Assembly: GCF_023509035.1 (NCBI RefSeq)
Contig: NZ_CP075583.1
Span: 62,001-126,000, forward strand
Source: Janthinobacterium lividum
Lineage (GTDB): Bacteria; Pseudomonadota; Gammaproteobacteria; Burkholderiales; Burkholderiaceae_D
Reading direction: 5' to 3'
DNA: 64,000 nt
Positions 20,362-63,222 of the stretch are shown in pieces. Both the position numbers and the translations under genes were made by a program. The notes under the pieces are model-generated. The model did no database searches. It had not been told where the DNA came from and worked only from the letters and a program-made list of their open reading frames with translations. Within the stretch, counting starts at the first letter, position 1; every line of letters begins with the position of its first letter.

Positions 20362-20704
20362 CAAGTGAAGCAGGCCGGTAGGCCGGATTTTGTTACGGCG
20401 CCTTCCCTTGCAGGTCGGCGCTATGACAGTCATTCCTCTAGGCGCCAGATTACTCGGGCGCTCAAGCTTTCTACCCGCACGCTCCGCGAGCAGCATCATC
20501 GCGTGCCTATTTGAAATTGCACCAGGTGGAGGTTACCGCGTTTCACCGTAACTTAATACGCTCGTCTCTGTGGCCCTATTCCTCGCCTTATACCTTACGG
20601 CTTTCGACGGACGGCCGTTAACCGTCACCCCGCTCTATGGAGTCCGGACCTTCCTCCCGCCAGCGCATTGCTGCGCCGGCCAGCGACTGTCTGGCCTGCT
20701 TCAC
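20362..20704 (-). ncRNA. rnpB: RNase P RNA (class A)
   Basis: The catalytic RNA of RNase P, which cleaves tRNA 5' leaders. On the minus strand the hallmark GAGGAAGGTCCGGACTCCAT (CR-I region) occurs near the 5' end, and AGAAAGCTTGAGC and AGAGGAATGACTGTCATAG lie in the centre. A 3' segment CCGGCCTACCGGCCTGCTTC pairs with the 5' GAAGCAGGCC to form helix P1. The length, about 340 nt, is right for class A. Ends are set by helix P1 and are accurate to a few bases. Confidence 0.95.
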
Positions 20705-25462: not shown

Positions 25463-25900
25463 TTAGCGCTGGCTTGCGCGCCGGAGCATGCGCATGAAAC
25501 CACCGAGCAGCGGCAGCTTTTCATACAATTCTTCCGCCGCATCCCAATAATCGCGGTGCAATACCACCCGCCCCTGCGCATCGAAACGCAGATGTGTTGC
25601 GCCACGGATACATTGTTCGCCAGATACCAGGCGTTTCATGCGAAAGCGAAACTCCCACGTCAGGAACGCTTGCTCCCCCTGCCCCAGGCTTTCCAGCACG
25701 GCAAACCGGGGCGCATCGACTTGCACGAACATGTGCTCGAAGATGGCCAGGATGGCGGCATGGCCCTGCACCTCGTTGAACGGGTCCTTGAAGCGGGCGT
25801 CTGGCGCATACACGGCGCCCAGCTGTGCCAGGCCCTCCAGGCTCAGGTGCTCGTAAAACGCCACCAAGCGCGCCAGCGGAGCCTCCACGGTTGCACTCAT
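25463..25900 (-). CDS. NTF2-like (SnoaL-fold) protein, last gene of the light-type lipid operon
   Basis: A 145-residue protein of the nuclear-transport-factor-2/SnoaL fold. It contains LVAFYEHLSLEGLAQLGAVY, YAPDARFKDPFNEVQGHAAI, and the closing strands of a cone-shaped beta sheet (RGATHLRFDAQGRVVLHRDYWDAAEELYE, given here as two adjoining strands). Such folds serve as small enzymes or ligand binders. The ATG at 25900 overlaps the SDR stop in an ATGA tetranucleotide, so it is translationally coupled to the SDR. Similar NTF2-like genes accompany SDR and cfa-like genes in light- or singlet-oxygen-induced clusters of other proteobacteria (known context). Its own activity is unknown. Confidence 0.85.
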   Translation of the reverse strand: MSATVEAPLARLVAFYEHLSLEGLAQLGAVYAPDARFKDPFNEVQGHAAILAIFEHMFVQVDAPRFAVLESLGQGEQAFLTWEFRFRMKRLVSGEQCIRGATHLRFDAQGRVVLHRDYWDAAEELYEKLPLLGGFMRMLRRASQR

Positions 25901-26665
25901 AGGCCCGTCACCTTGCGGATCAGCCAAAAATAGGCGCGATACGGCAACAGCCGTGCCAGGCGCATGGCATTCGTGAAGCGCTTCGGAAAGTGGATGTGGA
26001 ACTGGCCCCGCTCGATGCCGTCGAGCATGGCGGCGCGCCGCGTCCTTCGCCGTCATCAAGGCCGGCATGGTGAAATCATTGTCCGCCGTCAGGGGCGTGG
26101 CGACAAAACCAGGATTGATTTGATACACATCAATCCCGCGTGGATGAAGGTCCATGTACAGCGACTCCGTCAGGTTGATCAGCGCCGCCTTGCTGGCGCC
26201 ATACGCGAGCGCCTTGGGCAAGCCGCCATAGCCGGCTACCGAAGCGACGATGCCGATGCCGCCGCTGCCCTGACGCAACAGCCACGGCAAGGCCTGTTCC
26301 AGGCAATTGAAGACGCCGCCCACATTCAGGGCCAGCAAGCCCTGGGCTGCCTCGAGATCGAAGCTATCGGCGCGCATGGCCTGATAGCCGCCAGCGACCA
26401 CCAGTATCAGGTCAATATGCGTCCACTGCTGCTGCAATTCTACGCAGACGGCCCGCAGCTGCGCATGCTGGGTGATATCGAGCGGCAAGGCCTGCGCCAG
26501 CGGCTGTCCCTCGCACAACTGTTCCAGGCTGGCGCGGTGGCGGGCTGACAAGGCCACGCTGGCGCCCTGCTCCAGCAGCAAGGTGGCACAGGCGGCGCCG
26601 ATGCCGCTGGAAGCACCGATGATCCACACGCGCTTGCCAGCCCAATTGGTGATCTTGCGATTCAT
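25897..26665 (-). CDS. Short-chain dehydrogenase/reductase (apparent 1-base insertion)
   Basis: About 255 residues when read through. The NAD(P) loop is IIGASSGIGAACATLL, the NAG-equivalent LNVGGVFN, the catalytic serine lies in VASVAGYGG and the YxxxK pair in AYGASKAAL. At 26029-26041 an extra base in a GC repeat throws the frame; correcting it gives AMLDGIERGQFHIHFPKRF and an end LIRKVTGL, typical of this SDR subgroup. Uncorrected, the ORF runs falsely into the NTF2-like gene. Its start overlaps the stop of the DUF3833 gene by 4 bp. It probably oxidises or reduces a lipid carbonyl/alcohol, by operon context. Confidence 0.88.
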
Positions 26666-27222
26666 GGGGCCGCCTGTGGACGCTTGCTGAACGATAAAGT
26701 AACGGCGCCCAGGCTGAAACCGAACTTGCTCATGGCGGCGCGGTTGAGCATGACCTTGTCATCCATCAGAAACATCCAGTCCTCGAAGTCGACGTGGTAG
26801 ACCGTGCCATCGACGGGCAGCGCCAGCACGTATTGCCAGCGCAGCGCATTGCCAGCCACTTCGCCGACGGCTTCCCCGATCACGTCGGGCGCCGTGCCGA
26901 TGAAGCGTCCGGGCGCCGTCTTGCGCAAAGTCCACACGCGCCGTTGGCGGCTGCCGTCCGAGTACGTGAAATCCTCGTCCAGAATGCCCGAATCGCCCTG
27001 CCAGCTGGCGCGCATCACTACAGTGAAACGCTTGACCACCTTGCCAGAGCGGTCCTGGAAGATGCCGTGGGCATCGAGCGTGCCGTTGAAGTACTGTTGC
27101 AGATCCAGTAAGGGTAACTCCTGCGCGTAGGTGGCCGGCGTGGGCGGCGTGGAACAGCCGGCCAGCGCCAGCAACAGGGCCGCCAGCGGCAGGCGACGTT
27201 TGCAATAGTTCATGAAGCGCAT
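26662..27222 (-). CDS. DUF3833 family lipoprotein
   Basis: A 186-residue protein with a lipobox (LLLALAGCSTPP, Cys at about residue 23), so it is a probable outer-membrane or periplasmic lipoprotein. The mature domain matches DUF3833: LDLQQYFNGTLDAHGIFQD, FTYSDGSRQRRVWTL, and YHVDFEDWMFLMDDKVMLNR. Its beta-rich pattern resembles a lipid-binding calyx, but this is inference. The ATG at 27222 has GGAG 8 bases upstream; an ATG at 27213 overlapping the MFS stop is the alternative. Confidence 0.88.
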   Translation of the reverse strand: MRFMNYCKRRLPLAALLLALAGCSTPPTPATYAQELPLLDLQQYFNGTLDAHGIFQDRSGKVVKRFTVVMRASWQGDSGILDEDFTYSDGSRQRRVWTLRKTAPGRFIGTAPDVIGEAVGEVAGNALRWQYVLALPVDGTVYHVDFEDWMFLMDDKVMLNRAAMSKFGFSLGAVTLSFSKRPQAAP

Positions 27223-28491
27223 GCGCGATTCTCCAGGTGGTCACTATATATATGTTGTAGGGGCGCGCGCCACAGCAGGAGCGCCGCCAGCAGTTTCAAG
27301 GCGCAGGGCAGCAAGGCGTAGCTTGCCGACAGGGCCGGCAAGCCGCCGCTGCTGCCCGGCACATAGCCGAGCCAGGCCAGCAGGGGCAAGGCGATGCCGG
27401 CCGCCAGCGCCAGGCTCATCTGCACGCCCCAGTTCCACCAGCCGAAATACGCCGCTTCGTGCCGGCCCGCATGACCGGCCGCACCAATCAGCCCTGCCAG
27501 CAGGGCCGGCGGCAAGGCCAGGTCGGCGCCCAGCGCCAGGCCCGACAGCAGACAGATGGCGGCAAAGCCCCAGGCGGCGCCCGCGCCCAGGCCGTAGGCC
27601 CAGACAAACACGCTGGCGGCCAGCAGCATAGCGCCGCCCCAGGCGCGCGCTTCGCCAAAGCGGCGTGCCAGGGCCACCCACACGGGCATCGAGGCGGCCG
27701 CCGCGCAAAAATAGACGATCAGGAATGGTCCTGCGTAATGGCCCAGGCGCAAGTAGTCGGTGGCAAAGAACAGGAACAGGGTGGCGGGAATGGCGGCGGC
27801 CACGCCATTGACGAGCAGGACGGCAAACAACCAGCGAAACGCGCGCTGGCGCAATGGCACGCGCCAGGCGCCAGCGGGCAGCGCCTCCATGCCTTGGCGC
27901 AAAACCGGACGCGGCGCGCGCGCCAGCAGCAGCGCGCCCGCCGCCAGCAGGCAGACGCCAAAGGCCAGCGACAAGCCCTCATAGCCGAGCACGGAAGTCA
28001 GCCCCGCCGCCAGGATCACGCCGAGTAAAACCGCAGCCTTCGCGCACGGCCGCTACCCGCGCCCGCTGCGCGCGCGCCTGACTCAAGGCCGCGCCCCAGC
28101 TCTGGTGCGCGATGCCGGCCAGGCCATAGGCAGTATAGACGAGCAGCAAGGCGGCCAGGAACCAGGCCAGGGTCGCTACTTGCGGCATGGCCGGCGGATG
28201 AAACAGCGCGCCAAAGCCCAGCAGCAGCAACGGTAGCGCAGCGCCGACATAGACGGCATAGCTGAGCCCGCCCCGCGCCATCCAGGCACCGAGGGCAGGA
28301 TCGATGAAGGCGGCGGCGATGCGGGCCGCCAGCAGTACGGCGCCGATTTGCGCCAAGTCAAGACTGCTGCGCTGCGCATAAAACGGCGCCACATATATAT
28401 AGATGGGCAGCGCCAGCATGGCCAGCGGCAAGCCGAACAGGCCATAGCTGAACAAGGCCGGCAAAGTCAAAGCGCTGGCCCCGGCAGTCAT
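27210..28491 (-). CDS. MFS transporter (apparent 1-base insertion)
   Basis: About 426 residues and twelve membrane helices when the two frames are joined. The N-half begins LPALFSYGLFGLPLAMLALP and contains the GxxxD-like loop ALGAWMARGG. The C-half begins ILAAGLTSVLGYEGL. An extra base in the A4 run at 28027-28030 separates them; with three bases the sequence reads REGCGLLGVIL across the join. Helix pattern resembles the GPH/sugar-cation symporter branch. It starts in an ATGA overlap with the chalcone-isomerase-like gene. The substrate is unknown; a lipid-precursor or flippase-like role is possible from context. Confidence 0.82.
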
Positions 28492-29036
28492 GGCAGCGGC
28501 GCGGCACTCTGCAACAGCGCGCCGCGCAGCTTGGGCGCCGTGGTCGATGGAGAGAGCCAGATGGCGAAGAAGGCGCGCGCAAAGTCGCCATCGCTCACGT
28601 CGGCCAGCACCTTGCCGTCGAGGTAAAAGCGCACGCCCGGTGCGATGCCGGCCCGGTAGGCGCCCGCGATGCGCTGATCTTCCTTGACGTCAGGAAAGAT
28701 ACGTTGCATGGTGGCCAGCCACGCCAGGCGCTGCGCTTCCGTGCCGGCGCCTATCTTCTGCATTTGTTCATAGCTGGCCTCGGCGATCTTCCTGCCATCG
28801 AGCGCACGCGCGTAGCGCAATTCCAGCACGAAGGGCGCCGTGGCCGACGCCGTGCCCTGATAGCCATTCGCGCCCACCCACAGTTGCGCGCGATAAATAC
28901 GCATGCCAAACCACGTATAGTCGCCCTCGCCCGCCAGGCGGGCCTCGGGCACGTCGGCAGCGATAAAGGCAGGCGGCGCGGCCACGGCAGCGGACATGCT
29001 CAACGACAGCACAACAGCGGCAAGCAGGCGGCGCAT
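28488..29036 (-). CDS. Chalcone-isomerase-like exported protein
   Basis: A 182-residue protein with a signal peptide (LLAAVVLSLSMSAAVAAPP). The domain pattern matches the Chalcone_3 family: YTWFGMRIYRAQLWV, FVLELRYARALDGRKIAE, SYEQMQKIG, and GVRFYLDGKVLADVSDGDFARAF. In plants and eukaryotes this fold binds fatty acids or flavonoids. The bacterial version is periplasmic and uncharacterised, but fatty-acid binding would fit the operon. It starts 2 bp after the methyltransferase stop. Confidence 0.85.
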   Translation of the reverse strand: MRRLLAAVVLSLSMSAAVAAPPAFIAADVPEARLAGEGDYTWFGMRIYRAQLWVGANGYQGTASATAPFVLELRYARALDGRKIAEASYEQMQKIGAGTEAQRLAWLATMQRIFPDVKEDQRIAGAYRAGIAPGVRFYLDGKVLADVSDGDFARAFFAIWLSPSTTAPKLRGALLQSAAPLP

Positions 29037-29038
29037 GG

Positions 29039-30291
29039 TCAGTCCTTGATCAGGGTAAATTGCATCACATCCGTGTTATGCGCCTGGAAGGCAGCCTCGC
29101 AATACGCGAGGTAAAACTCCCAGGTCAGCAGGAAACGGCCATCGAATCCCTGCCTTTCCAACGCCGTGCGCTGGGCCAGGAAGCTGGCGCGCCACTGGCG
29201 CAAGGTTTCCGCGTAATCGAGGCCAAAGCTGAAGGCGTCTTCCACGCGCAAGCCCTGCGCCTCGGCGGCGCGGCGAAACTCGGCCGGCGAAGGCAGCATG
29301 CCGCCCGGGAAAATGTACTGTTGAATAAAGTCCGTGCTCTTGCTGTAGCGCTCGAACAAGGCATCGGCGATGACGATGGTCTGGATGCAGGCCCGTCCGC
29401 CTGGCTTCAGGTTGCGCGCCACGCAGGCGAAATAGCCGGACCAGTAGCTTTGCCCCACGGCTTCGAACATCTCGATCGAGGCGATGGCGTCGTACTGGCC
29501 GTGGCTGTCGCGGTAGTCGCACAGCTGCAAATCGGCCTGCTCCGCCAGCCCCGCATCCTGCAGGCGCTGGCGCGCATAGGCGAGCTGCTCGGTCGACAGG
29601 GTCAGGCCCGTCACGTGGGCGCCATAGCTGTGCGCCGCCGTTTCCGCGAAACCGCCCCAGCCGCAACCGATTTCCAGCACGCGCTGGCCCAGCTGCGGCT
29701 GCAGTTGCAACTGCTCCGCAATGCGCCGGTACTTCGCGCCCTGCGCCGCTTCCAGGCTGGCGCCTTCGGAAAACAGGGCGCTCGAATACGTCATCGACGG
29801 GTCCAGCCACAGCTGATAAAAGGCGTTGCCGATGTCGTAATGGGCGTGAATATTCTTCTTGCTGCCGGCACGTGAATTGCGGTGCAGCAAATGGCGCACC
29901 TTATAGATCAGGTTACCCCACCAGTTGCCGTAGATCAGCGATTCAATCTGCGCGCGGTTGCGTATCATCAATTCGATCAAGCCCGGCAAATTGTCCGTGC
30001 GCCAGTCGCCGGCGATAAACGTTTCCGCAAAGCCGATGTCGCCCGAGCGCAGGACGGCCGAACACAAACGCCAGTTATGCAAGTCCAGGGTGACGGGGTG
30101 GCTGCCGTCGCCGTACTGCAGGACGCTGCCGTCAGGCGTGCGCAGGCGCAGGGCGCCATGCTGCAATTTTGCAGCAGGCGCAGAATCATGCGCCCGGCAG
30201 CGGGCAGGTCCAGGTGCGCGTGGTCGTGCAAGTGCGCGGGGCAAGCGCTGCTGCGCGCGTGCAGGCCGGTCGGCAGGGAATCGGAGCTCAT
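29039..30291 (-). CDS. Cyclopropane-fatty-acyl-phospholipid-synthase-like methyltransferase (apparent 1-base deletion)
   Basis: A SAM-dependent enzyme that acts on the double bond of membrane acyl chains, about 417 residues when repaired. The N-terminal lipid-binding region has FAETFIAGDWRTDNLPGL. The core has NIHAHYDIGNAFYQLWLDPS, motif I VLEIGCGWGGFAE, SIEMFEAVG and FPGGMLPS. The ATG at 30291 (MSSDSLPTGLHA) overlaps the DUF1365 stop in ATGA, but a T4 run at 30167-30170 lacks one base; restoring it joins RLLQ to KLQHGALRLRT. Homologues include CFA synthase and the furan-fatty-acid methylase UfaM, and the operon favours the latter type. Confidence 0.9.
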
Positions 30292-31085
30292 CGGGACACC
30301 TTTTCTTGTGGAGGGTGGGGTTTGCTGAAAAACGGCACGCGGCGCAGCCACAGGCGCAAGGCTTGCCAATGGATGCGCGCCATCACGCCAAACGTCATCA
30401 GGGGGTAGCGCAGCAAGGCCCAGGCGATGGCCCCATCACGCAGCGGCTGCGCCGTGCCGGACAAGCTCGTCTGCAGCAGCGGGCCAGCGAGGTCGTCGTA
30501 ATCGACCCGGGCCAGGTGGCGCTCGCCGTCTTGTTCGCTATTGCGCAGGAAACGGAAGCGGTACCGGCCTTCCACCTTGCAAAACGGCGACACATGGAAA
30601 ATTTTCTTGGCGACCAGTTCGCTGCCATACGCGATGGCGCCGCCCTGCTCGAGCAAGTACAGATGGCGCTCGCCAAAGGTATTGCGCACATCGCAGACCA
30701 CGGCCCGCAGCGCGCCATCCGGGCGGTGGCAAAACCAGAAGCTGATGGGATTGAAGACATAGCCGAACATGCGCGGCATGGTTTGCAGCCAGATTTCGCC
30801 ACCCGCGTCCAACACGCCATGCTGGCGCAGCAAGCCATTGATCCAGTCCAGCAGCGGCGTCGCGCCATCGCCGTGGTCGCTGTCGCGGAAGGACAGCAGA
30901 TTAGCGCCGTTGCGCGAAATCAAGCGTGCCGGGAAATCCTGCATCCCCATGCTGCGCAGGGGCAGGCGCAGATAAAACATGCCATAACTAAAAGCATGGG
31001 CGCGCGGACGCAGCCGCGCATGGCGCACCCGCCCCAGGCACAGCTGGGGCTGCGTCGGGGAAGGCTGCGTGGGATCACGCGGCAT
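30288..31085 (-). CDS. DUF1365 domain protein
   Basis: A 265-residue protein of the DUF1365 family, which is nearly always encoded beside an FAD oxidoreductase and a CFA-synthase-like gene. Signatures are GRVRHARLRPRAHAFSYGMF, MPRMFGYVFNPISFWFCH and the central HVSPFCKVEGRYRFRF. The reaction is not firmly known; participation in methylated or furan fatty-acid formation is suggested by context. I chose the ATG at 31085 over a TTG at 31091. It overlaps the oxidoreductase stop by 11 bp. Confidence 0.92.
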   Translation of the reverse strand: MPRDPTQPSPTQPQLCLGRVRHARLRPRAHAFSYGMFYLRLPLRSMGMQDFPARLISRNGANLLSFRDSDHGDGATPLLDWINGLLRQHGVLDAGGEIWLQTMPRMFGYVFNPISFWFCHRPDGALRAVVCDVRNTFGERHLYLLEQGGAIAYGSELVAKKIFHVSPFCKVEGRYRFRFLRNSEQDGERHLARVDYDDLAGPLLQTSLSGTAQPLRDGAIAWALLRYPLMTFGVMARIHWQALRLWLRRVPFFSKPHPPQEKVSR

Positions 31086-32388
31086 TGCCAAGCTCCGCGG
31101 ATGCCAGGCCCAGCAGGCTTTGCGCCACGGCCAAGCCCGACTTCAAGCCGTCTTCATGGAAACCGTAGCCCGTCCAGGCGCCCGCAAACCACGTGTGCTG
31201 CGCGCCCTGGAAACCGGCCAGGCGCGCCTGGGCGGCAATGGCCGCGCCATCGAACACGGGATGGGCATACGAAAACTCGTCGATGATGGTCGCCGGATCG
31301 GGCTCGTCGAGCGGATTGAGCGAGACGATGACGGGGGTGCTGAATGGCAAAGGCTGCAGCTGGTTCAGCAAATAATGCACGCACACTTGCGGCGCCTCGC
31401 CTTCCGCCACTGCCGGCCGGCCCTGGTAATTCCAGGCCGACCAGGCACGGCGGCGCTGCGGCAGGCAAGACGCATCCGTATGCAGCACAGCGCGATTGGG
31501 CTGGTAGCGCACGGCTTCGAGCACGGAACGCTCGTCGTCGCGGATATCCGCCAGCAGGGCCAGCGACTGGTCGCTGTGGCAAGCCAGTACGACGTGATCG
31601 ACATGCTCGACGCCGGCGGCCGTATGCAGCTCGACCATGCGCGCACCGCCGTGCGGCTGGCGGCGCACGGCCAGCACGGGGCACGCCAGGCGCTGCTGCG
31701 GGATGGCCGCCAGCAGTTTTTCCACGTACACGCGCGAGCCGCCCCGCACCGTGCGCCATTGCGGCCGGTCGCTCACTTGCAGCAAGCCATGGTTGTGGCA
31801 AAAACGAATGAAAGTAGCCAAGGGAAAGGCCAGCATCTGGCGCGCCGGGCACGACCAGATGCAAGCGGCCATCGGCAGCAGATACCAGTGGCGGAACTCA
31901 TCGCCATAGCCGTGCAGGTCGAGAAACTCGCCCAGCGACAGGACCGGCGCCGGCAAGCTTCCCGTGGCAAGGGCGCTGGCCTGGCGGTTGAAGCGCAGAA
32001 TATCGCGCAACATGCGCAGGAAAGCGGGGCGCAGCAGATTGCTACGCTGGGTAAACACGGTATCGAAATTGGCGCCCGCCCATTCAAGCACGCGGGCATC
32101 GGACGAGGCGCCCAGCGGCATCTTCACGGAAAACGACATATCGCTGTCTGCCGCCTCGACGCCCAGTTCCTGAAACAGCTGCACCAGGTTCGGATAGGTG
32201 GCGTGATTGAACACGAGAAAACCCGTATCGACGCCATGCGTGACGCCATCGAGCGTGACATCCACCGTGTGGCTGTGACCGCCAAAGTAGTCGCCCGCTT
32301 CATACAAGGTGACGTCCTGGCCCGCCTGCGCCAGGCGATACGCACACGACAAACCGGCAATTCCTGCACCGACGACGGCAATTTTCAT
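31075..32388 (-). CDS. FAD-dependent oxidoreductase (amine-oxidase family), first gene of the operon
   Basis: A 437-residue flavoprotein. The dinucleotide-binding motif is MKIAVVGAGIAGLSCAYRLA with YEAGDYFGGHSHTVDV after it. A late FAD motif, WFAGAWTGYGFHEDGLKSG, closes the fold. The nearest families are the NAD/FAD proteins paired with DUF1365 and cfa-like genes, which desaturate or otherwise oxidise acyl chains. The ATG at 32388 is preceded by AGGTG and fits the GxGxxG start. A consensus-like promoter and a 15-bp palindrome lie just upstream, in the gap to the divergent B12-type regulator. Confidence 0.92.
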   Translation of the reverse strand: MKIAVVGAGIAGLSCAYRLAQAGQDVTLYEAGDYFGGHSHTVDVTLDGVTHGVDTGFLVFNHATYPNLVQLFQELGVEAADSDMSFSVKMPLGASSDARVLEWAGANFDTVFTQRSNLLRPAFLRMLRDILRFNRQASALATGSLPAPVLSLGEFLDLHGYGDEFRHWYLLPMAACIWSCPARQMLAFPLATFIRFCHNHGLLQVSDRPQWRTVRGGSRVYVEKLLAAIPQQRLACPVLAVRRQPHGGARMVELHTAAGVEHVDHVVLACHSDQSLALLADIRDDERSVLEAVRYQPNRAVLHTDASCLPQRRRAWSAWNYQGRPAVAEGEAPQVCVHYLLNQLQPLPFSTPVIVSLNPLDEPDPATIIDEFSYAHPVFDGAAIAAQARLAGFQGAQHTWFAGAWTGYGFHEDGLKSGLAVAQSLLGLASAELGNAA

Positions 32389-32406
32389 GAGTACACCTGT
32401 ATTGAG

Positions 32407-32463
32407 TTTGTCCTGGACAAAACGAGCCTCATGGATAATCGATGAAATATTGATTCGTGTCAA
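32407..32463 (-). promoter_or_regulatory. Promoter and palindromic operator of the lipid operon
   Basis: On the minus strand TTGACA (32458-32463) and GATTAT (32435-32440) are 17 bp apart; the -35 is perfect. Downstream of the -10, near the likely start of transcription, lies the perfect palindrome TTTGTCC-A-GGACAAA (32407-32421, minus-strand reading). A near-consensus -35 with a symmetrical operator over the start suits a repressed promoter. The divergent MerR/B12 regulator is the obvious repressor, but binding is inferred. Confidence 0.6.
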
Positions 32464-32523
32464 TGAGTGCTCTCAGCCATTCACAAACTTATACGCCGGC
32501 CATTTGCAATCGGATTCAGTTAT

Positions 32524-32552
32524 TTGGTCCGGGGCGGCGGAAGGCGTAAAAT
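32524..32552 (+). promoter_or_regulatory. Promoter of the MerR/B12 regulator gene
   Basis: TTGGTC (32524-32529) and TAAAAT (32547-32552) are separated by 17 bp and lie about 40 bp before the ATG at 32594. The position supports that start over upstream in-frame ones, which would begin inside or ahead of the promoter. Confidence 0.5.
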
Positions 32553-32593
32553 GCATGCCACGTTCTTCCGCAAGCGAGCAAAGCCACCCTGGT

Positions 32594-33535
32594 ATGGATA
32601 CAGACCTGCAACCTACTTCCGCCTTCAGCATCGGTGATGTCGAACGCGACACCGGGCTGGCCAAGGAAACCTTGCGTGTGTGGGAGCGCCGCTACGCCTT
32701 CCCCCAGCCCCGGCGCGACGCCTTTGGCGAGCGCAGCTACCCTGCCGAGCAAGTACAAAAACTGCGCATGGTCAAGCGCCTGCTGGACCTCGGATTTCGT
32801 CCGGGAAAAATCATGCAGCACAGCACCGCGCAGCTGCAGCAGCTGGCCAGCGCCGGCAGCGCGGCGCAGCCCTTGCCGCAACCGCAACTGGCGCATTACC
32901 TGGCCCTGTGCCGCGGTCACCAGATGGCGGAACTGGGCGACGCCCTGCGCCAGGCGCTGGCCGTACTGGGTCTGAAAGCGTTCACCATCGACGTCATCGC
33001 CCCCCTCACCAGCATGGTGGGCGAAGCGTGGGCTTGCGGCGAACTGGCTGTATACGAAGAGCATCTATATAGCGAAACCTTGCAGACGGTGATGCGCCAT
33101 GCCATTTTTTCGCTGCCGCAAGCAAGCAGCCCGTCCACGCGCTCGCCGCGCATCGTCCTCAGTACCTTCCCGCAGGAGCGCCATGGCCTGGGGCTGCTGA
33201 TGGCCGAGGCGCTGTGTGCGGCGGCCGGCGCCCATTGCATGTCGCTGGGGGTGGAAACACCGCTGACGGACATCGTCGCGGCCGCCCGCGCGCAGCGGGC
33301 CGATATCGTGGCGCTGTCGTTTTCCAGTGCCAGCAAGCAACGGCAAACGCGCGACAGCCTGCAGCAGTTGCACGCGAGCTTGCCGCCAGACATGGAATTG
33401 TGGGCAGGCGGACGCAGTCCCGTCCTGTACAAGCACCCGCCGCCCTTTTTGCATGTGCTGGACTTGCGGCAAGTCGAGGAAAGCATCGCCGACTGGCGCC
33501 GCCGCCACCAGGCGCTCGCCCTGCAAACCCACTGA
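32594..33535 (+). CDS. MerR-family regulator with B12-binding domain, CarH/LitR-type photoreceptor
   Basis: A 313-residue protein. Residues 11-75 form a MerR winged helix (FSIGDVERDTGLAKETLRVW, then ERRY). Residues about 95-180 form the four-helix cap and 185-305 the cobalamin-binding Rossmann domain. The photochemical residues are present: W146-x9-E156-H157 in the cap (upper axial ligand side) and E195-x-H197-x-x-G200 in the Rossmann domain (lower axial histidine). Proteins of this type bind adenosylcobalamin, tetramerise on DNA in the dark and fall apart in light. It diverges from the lipid operon, its presumed target. The start is chosen from the promoter position. Confidence 0.92.
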   Translation: MDTDLQPTSAFSIGDVERDTGLAKETLRVWERRYAFPQPRRDAFGERSYPAEQVQKLRMVKRLLDLGFRPGKIMQHSTAQLQQLASAGSAAQPLPQPQLAHYLALCRGHQMAELGDALRQALAVLGLKAFTIDVIAPLTSMVGEAWACGELAVYEEHLYSETLQTVMRHAIFSLPQASSPSTRSPRIVLSTFPQERHGLGLLMAEALCAAAGAHCMSLGVETPLTDIVAAARAQRADIVALSFSSASKQRQTRDSLQQLHASLPPDMELWAGGRSPVLYKHPPPFLHVLDLRQVEESIADWRRRHQALALQTH

Positions 33536-34767: not shown

Positions 34768-35509
34768 ATGATTGAATTTCAGCACGTCTCCAAGCAATAC
34801 TCCGCCGACGCCGTGGCGCTCAGCGACATTTCGCTGAGCATTGCCAAAGGCGAGCTGGTCTTTCTGGCGGGCCCGTCCGGCGCCGGCAAATCCACCTTGC
34901 TGAAAATGATCGCCGCCATGGAACGCCCCACGTCGGGCAAGCTGATCGTCAATGGCCAGGACATGGCGAAGATCAAGCCGGCCGGCGTGCCGTTTTTGCG
35001 CCGTAACATGGGCCTGATCTTCCAGCAGCAAAAATTATTGAACGACCGCTCCATCCTGGCCAACGTCATGCTGCCGCTGCTCGTCGTCGGCGCCCACAAG
35101 GCGGCCGCCGAACAGCGCGCGCGCGCCGCGCTCGACAAGGTGGGCCTGCTCGACCGCGCCATGGCGCGTCCGCTATCGCTGTCGGGCGGCGAACAGCAGC
35201 GCGTGTCGATCGCGCGCGCCATCGTCAACCGGCCGCAGATCATCCTGGCCGATGAACCGACGGCCAACCTGGACCGCGCCAGCGCCGACAAGGTGCTCGA
35301 CGCCTTGAAAGCGTTTCATTCGGTGGGCGTGACCTGCCTCATTTCCAGCCATGACGAACAGATGCTCGATGCCGCCGCCCGCGTGATCCACCTGAAAAAC
35401 GGCCAGCTGGTCGCCATCGACAAGGCCACGCAAGCGCCCGTCTTCGCCCCCCGATCCCGATTTTGCGCCCGCCCCCGGCCCGGACGACGCACAGGGAGAA
35501 CAGCCATGA
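34768..35509 (+). CDS. ftsE: Cell division ATP-binding protein FtsE (apparent 1-base insertion near the 3' end)
   Basis: The ABC ATPase of the FtsEX complex, which activates septal amidases; about 246 residues. It has Walker A GPSGAGKST (35-43), the signature LSGGEQQRVSIARAI and Walker B IILADEPTANLD. A C6 run at 35447-35452 carries one base too many: with five C the frame ends FAPAPGPDDAQGEQP and stops at 35509, overlapping the ftsX ATG in ATGA. As written, ftsE runs into ftsX and gives a false 552-residue fusion. Confidence 0.93.
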
Positions 35510-61622: not shown

Positions 61623-63222
61623 TTACTTCACTGTTGGCGGCGTTTCAAACGTGTGGAACGGCGCCGGGCTCGGCACGGTCCATTCCAGGCCTTCCGCGCC
61701 TTCCCATGGTTTCGCCGGCGCAGCCTTGCCGCCGCGAATGGTCGGCAAGACCACGAAGAACAGGAAGTACACTTGCATCAGGCCAAAACCGAAACCGCCG
61801 ATCGAGGCGATCATGTTGAAGTCCGTGAACTGCGCCGGATAGTCGGCGTAGCGGCGCGGCATGCCGGCCAGGCCCAGGAAGTGCATCGGGAAGAAGGTCA
61901 CGTTGAAGGTGATCAGCGACAGCCAGAAGTGGATCTTGCCGCGCGTCTCGTTGTACATATGGCCCGTCCATTTCGGCGACCAGTAGTAGAAGCCGGCGAA
62001 CAGGGCAAACAGCGAACCGGCCACCAGCACATAGTGGAAATGCGCCACCACGTAATAGGTATCCTGCAGCTGGATGTCGATCGGCGTCACCGCCAGGATC
62101 AGGCCCGTGAAGCCGCCCATGGTAAAGACGAAGATGAAGCCCACCGAGAACAGCATCGGCGTCTCGAACGTCATGGAACCCTTCCACATCGTGGCGATCC
62201 AGTTGAACACTTTCACGCCCGTCGGCACGGCGATCAGCATGGTCGCGTACATGAAGAACAGCTGGCTCGTCACCGGCATGCCGGTGGTAAAACATGTGGT
62301 GCGCCCAGACGATGAAGGACAGAATCGCGATCGAGGCCGTGGCGTACACCATCGACGCGTAGCCGAACAAGGGTTTACGGGCAAACGCGGGCAGTATCTG
62401 CGAGACGATGCCGAAAGCCGGCAAGATCATGATGTAGACCTCGGGATGGCCGAAGAACCAGAAGATGTGCTGGTACATGACGGGGTCGCCGCCACCTGCC
62501 GCGTTAAAGAAGGAGGTGCCGAAATGGCGGTCCGTCAGGGTCATGGTGATGGCGCCGGCCAGCACGGGCATGACGGCGATCAACAGATACGCGGTAATCA
62601 GCCAGGTCCAGCAGAACATCGGCATTTTCATCAGGGTCATGCCGGGCGCGCGCATGTTCAAAATGGTGACGATGATGTTGATCGAGCCCATGATGGACGA
62701 GGCACCCATCAAATGCATGGCGAAAATGGCCATATCCATGCCAGGACCCATCTGCGTCGACAGCGGCGCATACAGGGTCCAGCCGGCAGCCGTGGCGCCG
62801 CCCGGCACGAGGAAGGACGTGGCCAGCAGCAGCGCGGCCGGCGGCAGCAGCCAGAACGAGAAATTGTTCATGCGGGCAAAGGCCATGTCGGACGCGCCCA
62901 CTTGCAGCGGGATCATCCAGTTGGCGTAGCCCACGAAGGCCGGCATGATGGCGCCAAACACCATCACCAAGCCGTGCATGGTGGTCAGCTGGTTGAAGAA
63001 TTCAGGGTGAAAGAATTGCAAGCCTGGGTGAAACAGTTCCGTACGGATCATTAGGGCCAGCACGCCGCCCGACAGCAGCATGATGAACGAGAACCACAGG
63101 TACAGGGTTCCGATATCCTTGTGATTGGTGGCAAACAGCCAGCGGCGCCAGCCATGGGGATGATCGTGGGCATGGTCGTGACCGGCGTGATCCAAGGTGC
63201 TAGTGCTCGTGCTAGTACTCAT
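61623..63222 (-). CDS. ctaD: Cytochrome c oxidase subunit I (apparent 1-base insertion)
   Basis: The catalytic haem-copper subunit, about 532 residues when repaired. It contains [18 protein letters not shown] with haem a ligand, [18 protein letters not shown] with the His-Tyr crosslink region, VWAHHMF for CuB, and [13 protein letters not shown] with haem a and a3 histidines. The N-terminus is His-rich ([15 protein letters not shown]). A run of four A at 62289-62292 (TTTT in the gene) has one base too many; with three the sequence reads [16 protein letters not shown]. As the enzyme core cannot work truncated, this is most likely a consensus error. Confidence 0.95.

Follow-up and report, generated by a model that had tools for sequence, protein, structure and literature searches.

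The 64,000-nucleotide stretch of Janthinobacterium lividum DNA analysed here (the window; bases 62001-126000 of a single-contig 6.26-Mb genome) carries at 25463..33535 a regulator gene and a divergent operon. The regulator gene, litR (32594..33535, +, ATG at 32594), encodes a 313-amino-acid LitR/CarH-type MerR protein with MerR_1, B12-binding_2 and B12-binding domains, and the operon on the opposite strand comprises eight genes in the order ufaD-ufaO-ufaM-CHI-MFS-DUF3833-SDR-NTF2 (CHI, chalcone-isomerase-like; SDR, short-chain dehydrogenase). Between them lies a 15-bp palindrome, TTTGTCCWGGACAAA (32407..32421; central base A or T), placed 18 bp from the ufaD start codon, on the downstream side of a predicted ufaD promoter TTGACA-N17-GATTAT (-35 at 32458..32463 and -10 at 32435..32440, both on the - strand). 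The locus is, in our view, likely to be a membrane-lipid operon switched by light through a repressor of its own, LitR, acting at TTTGTCCWGGACAAA. An earlier note on this stretch had proposed a light-controlled lipid locus with the same limits, 33535 being the last base of the regulator gene; the two sets of cobalamin residues that it read in the MerR protein are exactly as it gave them, and all eight gene families are present in its order and on its strand. The overlaps of a few bases that it described hold for neighbouring genes (4 to 13 bases), with the exception of a 2-bp gap between the methyltransferase and chalcone-isomerase-like genes, and it had overlooked that three genes, ufaM and those of the MFS carrier and the SDR, change frame.

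In an alignment of the ufaD-litR intergenic region (the window and its 26 operon-bearing relatives; three of the 29 fetched loci, L050, L051 and L054, have no ufaD and were excluded), the 14 fixed positions of the palindrome are identical in all 27 sequences. Across 40 congeneric genomes the exact palindrome was found in 29, once per genome and always 159-305 bp upstream of litR (29/29), and the reversed pattern had no match in the same 40. Full-length litR is present in 31 of these genomes, 29 of which have the site; the two litR-bearing genomes without it (G003, G008) have none of ufaD, ufaO and ufaM beside litR. None of the nine genomes lacking litR (two of them under 90% complete) has the site. 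In 80 named litR loci (L147-L226, those ranking best among 100; 30 with ufaD beside litR and 50 without) we scored the mismatches of the best match in the 400 bp ahead of litR, using as controls 683 stretches from the same loci (117 of 800 random draws, being within 1500 bp of litR, were dropped). The palindrome was found with two mismatches or fewer in 69 of the 80 loci vs one of the 683 controls; with at most one mismatch in all 30 loci with adjacent ufaD; and with at most two in 39 of the 50 loci without it.

DUF1365, the ufaO domain, was detected in 33 of the 40 congeneric genomes, and four genomes (G002, G006, G026, G027) keep the operon next to ftsY and are missing litR. The exact palindrome is present in none of these four: remnants stand at the same place, with three mismatches in G002 and G026 and more decayed in G006 and G027. 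The promoter hexamer TTGACA is unchanged in all four, and at the -10 region they have GACTAT, a sequence also present in some genomes with litR. On the ufaD tree (35 rows; bootstrap not settled) the absence of litR in the four genomes needs three changes, which we read as three losses because the outgroup rows carry litR. The site follows the regulator and not the operon, because it has decayed without litR and is mostly kept where the operon is gone. The co-occurrence counts are drawn from related, non-independent genomes; this matters least for the losses of litR, which are separate events, and for the light genes described below, which are unlinked. TTTGTCCWGGACAAA is the probable LitR operator.

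Two other candidate sites and a wider regulon were rejected. The inverted repeat TTGA-N6-TCAA at the -35 region persists in the litR-less genomes and is therefore more likely part of the promoter, and CarH-like tandem repeats are not supported because the distance from TTGACA to the palindrome varies among relatives. In the window genome the litR-ufaD site is the only exact palindrome, so the photolyase gene of this genome has no exact site; with up to two mismatches there are 11 sites vs 8 for the reversed pattern, leaving a wider LitR regulon unsupported. Neither 13-base core of the operator string was found among the best-ranked open-licence papers listed.

Beyond the genus, the exact site occurs in 35 of 294 Oxalobacteraceae genomes (21 Janthinobacterium and 14 others) and stands at litR in 32 of the 35, including 11 of the 14 non-Janthinobacterium genomes. 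At these 11 litR sites ufaD is adjacent or, in G074, about 2 kb off beyond glutathione peroxidase and folE2 genes. The remaining three genomes (G147, G200, G133) hold five sites in total: one abuts the start of a DNA photolyase gene (G147), one lies 58 bp before a BLUF-domain gene (G200), and one lies 29 bp before a photoactive yellow protein gene whose start was chosen by hand (L258/L238, G133), with a LitR-like gene, its B12-binding match under the cut-off, about 1.7 kb away. An order-wide draw of 399 genomes had the site in 13, including the window genome and G133, and the reversed pattern in two; the other 11 genomes together have 12 sites, seven of them beside a litR (45-51% identity).

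The two other palindromes, in L251 (G147) and L252 (G200), lie about 570 bp and about 140 bp, respectively, upstream of methyl-accepting chemotaxis genes, and the one in L251 is also inside an open reading frame (ORF) of doubtful reality; these may reflect phototaxis or chance. Glutathione peroxidase genes also stand beside litR and the palindrome in L261, L271 and L274, with folE2 too in L261 (recognised by Pfam in L261 and by eye in the others).

The operon starts with ufaD (31075..32388, -), which encodes a 437-amino-acid FAD oxidoreductase with an amine-oxidase-type FAD domain, followed by ufaO (30288..31085, -; DUF1365, PF07103, 275 bits) and by ufaM (29039..30291, -), a gene for a methyltransferase of the cyclopropane fatty acid (CFA) synthase family (PF02353) whose N-terminal part is in a different frame here. 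The genes beyond encode a chalcone-isomerase-like protein (28488..29036, -; PF16036), an MFS_2-family carrier (27210..28491, -; in two frames here), a DUF3833 lipoprotein (26662..27222, -), an SDR (25897..26665, -; C-terminal part in a different frame here) and an NTF2/SnoaL-like protein (25463..25900, -; PF12680). Among 29 congeneric regions around litR, 26 have the divergent operon and three do not; all eight genes are present in 25 of the 26, L049 being without DUF3833.

UfaM, UfaD and UfaO types occur together in this operon, a likeness at the level of domains (CMAS, amine-oxidase-type FAD and DUF1365). Aligned with E. coli CFA synthase, the window methyltransferase has C to S and H to Q changes at two places which we take to be bicarbonate ligands, presumably C139 and H266; the serine was detected by pattern in 14 of 15 relatives, and both changes fit methylation without ring closure. 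In Rhodobacter, UfaM, UfaD and UfaO suffice for methyl furan fatty acid, and UfaO carries DUF1365 (PMC7380195), in agreement with the link to furan fatty-acid gene sets made in the earlier note. The product could instead be cyclopropane or methyl-branched lipids, given that, among named relatives, CFA synthases come closest to the methyltransferase and that DUF1365 proteins besides UfaO are of untested function; with the set of enzymes sufficient for furan synthesis in one operon, and the substitutions at the presumed ligands, we judge this alternative unlikely, while it survives better than any other. Methylated or furan acyl chains would then be the lipid product of the operon.

Tentative roles can be proposed for three further proteins, the chalcone-isomerase-like, MFS and DUF3833 members. 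The structure model of the DUF3833 protein is a lipocalin/nitrobindin/CpeS-like barrel (weak matches, best E 2e-4, query TM score about 0.3-0.6), and because of this barrel a lipid-binding role would fit; from the model it may reasonably be supposed to bind some hydrophobic ligand in the envelope. The MFS carrier of a relative had no match among solved structures at E up to 1, and NCBIfam at E up to 0.001 assigned no family to a relative's DUF1365, DUF3833, chalcone-isomerase-like or NTF2-like protein.

Five loci, L279, L280, L281, L284 and L285 (G006, G038, G029, G034 and G019), hold a second ufa cluster that has diverged (UfaD 55-57% identity), with a gene for a 324-327-amino-acid MerR protein, its C-terminus lacking the cobalamin motif, some kb away. 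A BLUF-like stretch lies beside this MerR gene in four of the five, and for L284 the best match to BLUF stands 12 kb off. This arrangement may be a light switch based on flavin that governs the same chemistry in parallel. L282 and L283 (G008, G015) have a second-type ufa cluster away from litR, and a gene recognised by eye as TetR-like diverges from the second-type cluster in L282 and likewise in L280.

The LitR protein scores above each Pfam cut-off (MerR_1 52.5, B12-binding_2 34.7 and B12-binding 36.0 bits) and carries W146-x9-E156-H157 and E195-R-H197-G-L-G200. Its named relatives at 89-96% identity are all from Janthinobacterium, and its closest solved relative by sequence is Thermus CarH, with which phmmer aligns the cobalamin-motif positions. 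In the AlphaFold2 model (predicted local distance difference test, pLDDT, 87) the C-terminal half fits CarH better than the entire chain does, and 48 of the 50 matches listed against the PDB, including the first 40, are Thermus CarH/LitR. The residues of Thermus CarH that bind adenosylcobalamin (AdoCbl) are W131, E141, H142 and H177 (PMC11796333), and the corresponding W, EH and H are all retained in the window LitR. In an alignment of 34 LitR proteins (A3; the window and 33 of the 80 named loci) the tryptophan, E156 and H157 are invariant (34/34 each) and H197 is present in 32; W-x9-EH is present in all 80 named litR loci and E-x-H-x-x-G in 72. The genome also has a cob(I)alamin adenosyltransferase gene and a cobalamin riboswitch, with a btuB-like ORF after the riboswitch and a cobS-like gene as neighbours (both recognised by eye). 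We infer from the sequence that LitR binds AdoCbl. With 128.2 bits against a cut-off of 400 for the NCBIfam CarH equivalog NF052513, what is supported is membership of the LitR family and not equivalence to CarH.

This score leaves room for a reading in which LitR reads the palindrome and controls the operon in response to a signal other than AdoCbl photolysis (another chromophore, redox state or cobalamin level alone). It is helped by the class III LitR of Burkholderia multivorans, a light-related LitR-family protein of the same order, which is reported with a non-B12 chromophore (PMC9758184, PMC6739363). Class III proteins are defined by a C-terminus without similarity to the functional domain, and the C-terminus of the window LitR matches B12-binding. 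Since both B12 domains exceed their Pfam cut-offs and the cofactor residues are invariant or, for H197, nearly so, a signal of another kind is rather improbable, slightly more so than a cyclopropane product.

The frames of the operon bear on whether it works in this strain. The frame changes lie near 30166 in ufaM, near 28025 in the MFS gene and near 26036 in the SDR gene, and the first part of the SDR is fused in the window with NTF2 into one 400-amino-acid ORF; in the 26 operon-bearing relatives the MFS halves share a frame, and SDR and NTF2 are read as two. We surveyed frameshifts over 0.42 Mb of the window genome and in two congeneric complete genomes (G001, G009), taking as test genes those unbroken between two other genomes; the gene sets were crude ORF picks, and the counts are relative, not absolute. 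Broken genes amounted to 34 of 261 in the window genome (31 of 268 with the other query set), compared with 6/249 and 7/244 in G001 and 8/251 and 6/233 in G009. All ten in-frame pieces tested are under purifying selection (dN/dS 0.04-0.22 vs G001; ufaD 0.09). Because the assembly is indel-rich across the 0.42 Mb compared, the three frameshifts are most likely assembly errors, and targeted inactivation of the operon was rejected on the same ground. That the operon is a decaying pseudogene cluster in this strain, as three frame-shifted genes of eight could suggest, is very improbable given the surplus of broken genes over the 0.42 Mb compared, the low dN/dS and the single-frame MFS gene of the relatives. 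Surplus frameshifts occur along the window (1-64000) and in the genome (G000) up to base 486000, for example in the ftsE-ftsX pair near 35445 and in a gene near 62290; the window also holds a class A RNase P RNA at 20363-20702 (-).

Least probable of all is that the palindrome, which sits inside the predicted ufaD leader and whose binding by LitR is a prediction, belongs to another regulator or to a ufaD leader RNA and is linked to litR by neighbourhood, given that it decays upon litR loss while operon and promoter remain, still accompanies litR in most cases where the operon has been lost, and recurs at unlinked light genes.

The locus resembles the Pseudomonas clusters of class II LitR (PplR1/PmlR1), in which a LitR-family MerR gene stands beside FAD oxidoreductase, UfaM, SDR and hypothetical genes; the pmlR1 region of Pseudomonas mendocina includes what is likely a nine-gene light-induced polycistron with FAD oxidoreductase, SDR and ufaM (PMC9758184), which bears out the Pseudomonas precedent for LitR-like control named in the earlier note. 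Unlike the Pseudomonas proteins, which keep one of two B12 domains and have PhrB in the cluster, the Janthinobacterium regulator has both domains and the operon no photolyase. The window LitR falls outside class II, with two B12 domains and no TGTACA string in the ufaD-litR intergenic sequence (inspected by eye). The MerR-B12-binding architecture, the W/EH/H residues and the fold are shared with CarH of Thermus, Bacillus and Myxococcus, and the three enzyme types with the furan pathway of Rhodobacter; there, the pathway is under ChrR, whose loss leads to more of the product, and ufaM (RSP2144) is separate from the RSP1087-1091 operon (PMC7380195), whereas here they form one operon with LitR. 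The blue-light response of Vibrio cholerae has a MerR-like regulator and a putative CFA synthase gene raised by blue light, and MerR and ChrR act jointly from separate loci, unlike LitR beside its operon (PMC5241685). What is new here is that a ufa operon and a LitR of the AdoCbl type come together with a palindrome that is single and of a different kind; that LitR can control ufa genes was known from Pseudomonas. Among the open-licence papers listed on LitR with Burkholderia or Janthinobacterium and on CarH/LitR homologues, none deals with this locus.

As to other light inputs, the earlier note had reported neither a sigma-E/ChrR pair nor a photolyase; this is true of the window, whereas a photolyase gene lies elsewhere in the genome at 1.95 Mb. 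No sigma-E/ChrR system was recognised in the genome, where the best ChrR match (27.7 bits) is far below the cut-off of 124.5 and by eye resembles an extracytoplasmic function sigma/zinc-finger anti-sigma pair. A BLUF protein was not found in the genome, and LOV proteins were not searched for. B12-dependent light sensing as the only input is plausible.

Several observations weigh against a light-switched lipid operon governed by LitR at the palindrome. H197 is missing in two of the 34 aligned LitR proteins and E-x-H-x-x-G in eight of the 80 litR loci; 11 of the 80 loci have a poor upstream match (three or more mismatches), and five of the 12 new order-level sites have no litR nearby. G026 and G027, two of the four litR-less genomes that keep the operon, are also without DUF3833. 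The shortfall against the CarH equivalog and the three frame-shifted genes of this assembly belong here too. The operators likewise differ: the class II LitR PmlR2, switched by a LOV protein, binds TGTACA-N12-TGTACA (PMC9758184), and CarH acts at tandem 11-bp direct repeats before carotenoid genes, compared with a single 15-bp inverted repeat before lipid genes here. The palindrome may be less foreign to CarH than this suggests, because CarH operators are plastic in design, with an inverted repeat in some Myxococcus, and because the half site TGGACA fits the CarH TnnACA (PMC9304148).

The sequence shows the protein family and its cofactor residues, the layout of the operon, and a palindrome that depends on litR; to these the explanation that we favour adds light release and a direction of control that we infer. 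In the dark, AdoCbl-LitR would bind TTTGTCCWGGACAAA, immediately beyond the start point predicted for the sigma-70-type promoter, and block the whole operon from ufaD to NTF2. Green or blue light would break the Co-C bond and LitR would let go; the derepressed operon would then yield 11-methylated and subsequently furan acyl chains on phospholipids, which would protect against singlet oxygen. The DUF3833 protein, as an outer lipocalin-like lipoprotein, together with the chalcone-isomerase-like protein and the MFS_2 carrier, may act by binding or moving the modified lipid or a product of its breakdown.

With almost the same confidence as for the operon itself, we take TTTGTCCWGGACAAA to be a previously undescribed, dedicated light operator of AdoCbl-type LitR across Burkholderiales: it would coevolve with litR (about three joint losses in one genus, and retention in most cases where the lipid operon has gone), would usually number one per genome, and would stand before photolyase, BLUF and photoactive yellow protein genes in some Oxalobacteraceae. 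If so, the 15-bp sequence could be used in pattern searches for B12-light regulons, and a light switch made of one site and one repressor would offer optogenetics a compact part. Strains without litR would make the protective lipids constitutively, and those natural strains, in which litR has been lost and the operator has decayed, provide a ready control for the value of the switch. For the common freshwater and soil betaproteobacteria that carry it, the cobalamin photoreceptor would have a non-carotenoid job, the remodelling of membrane lipids.

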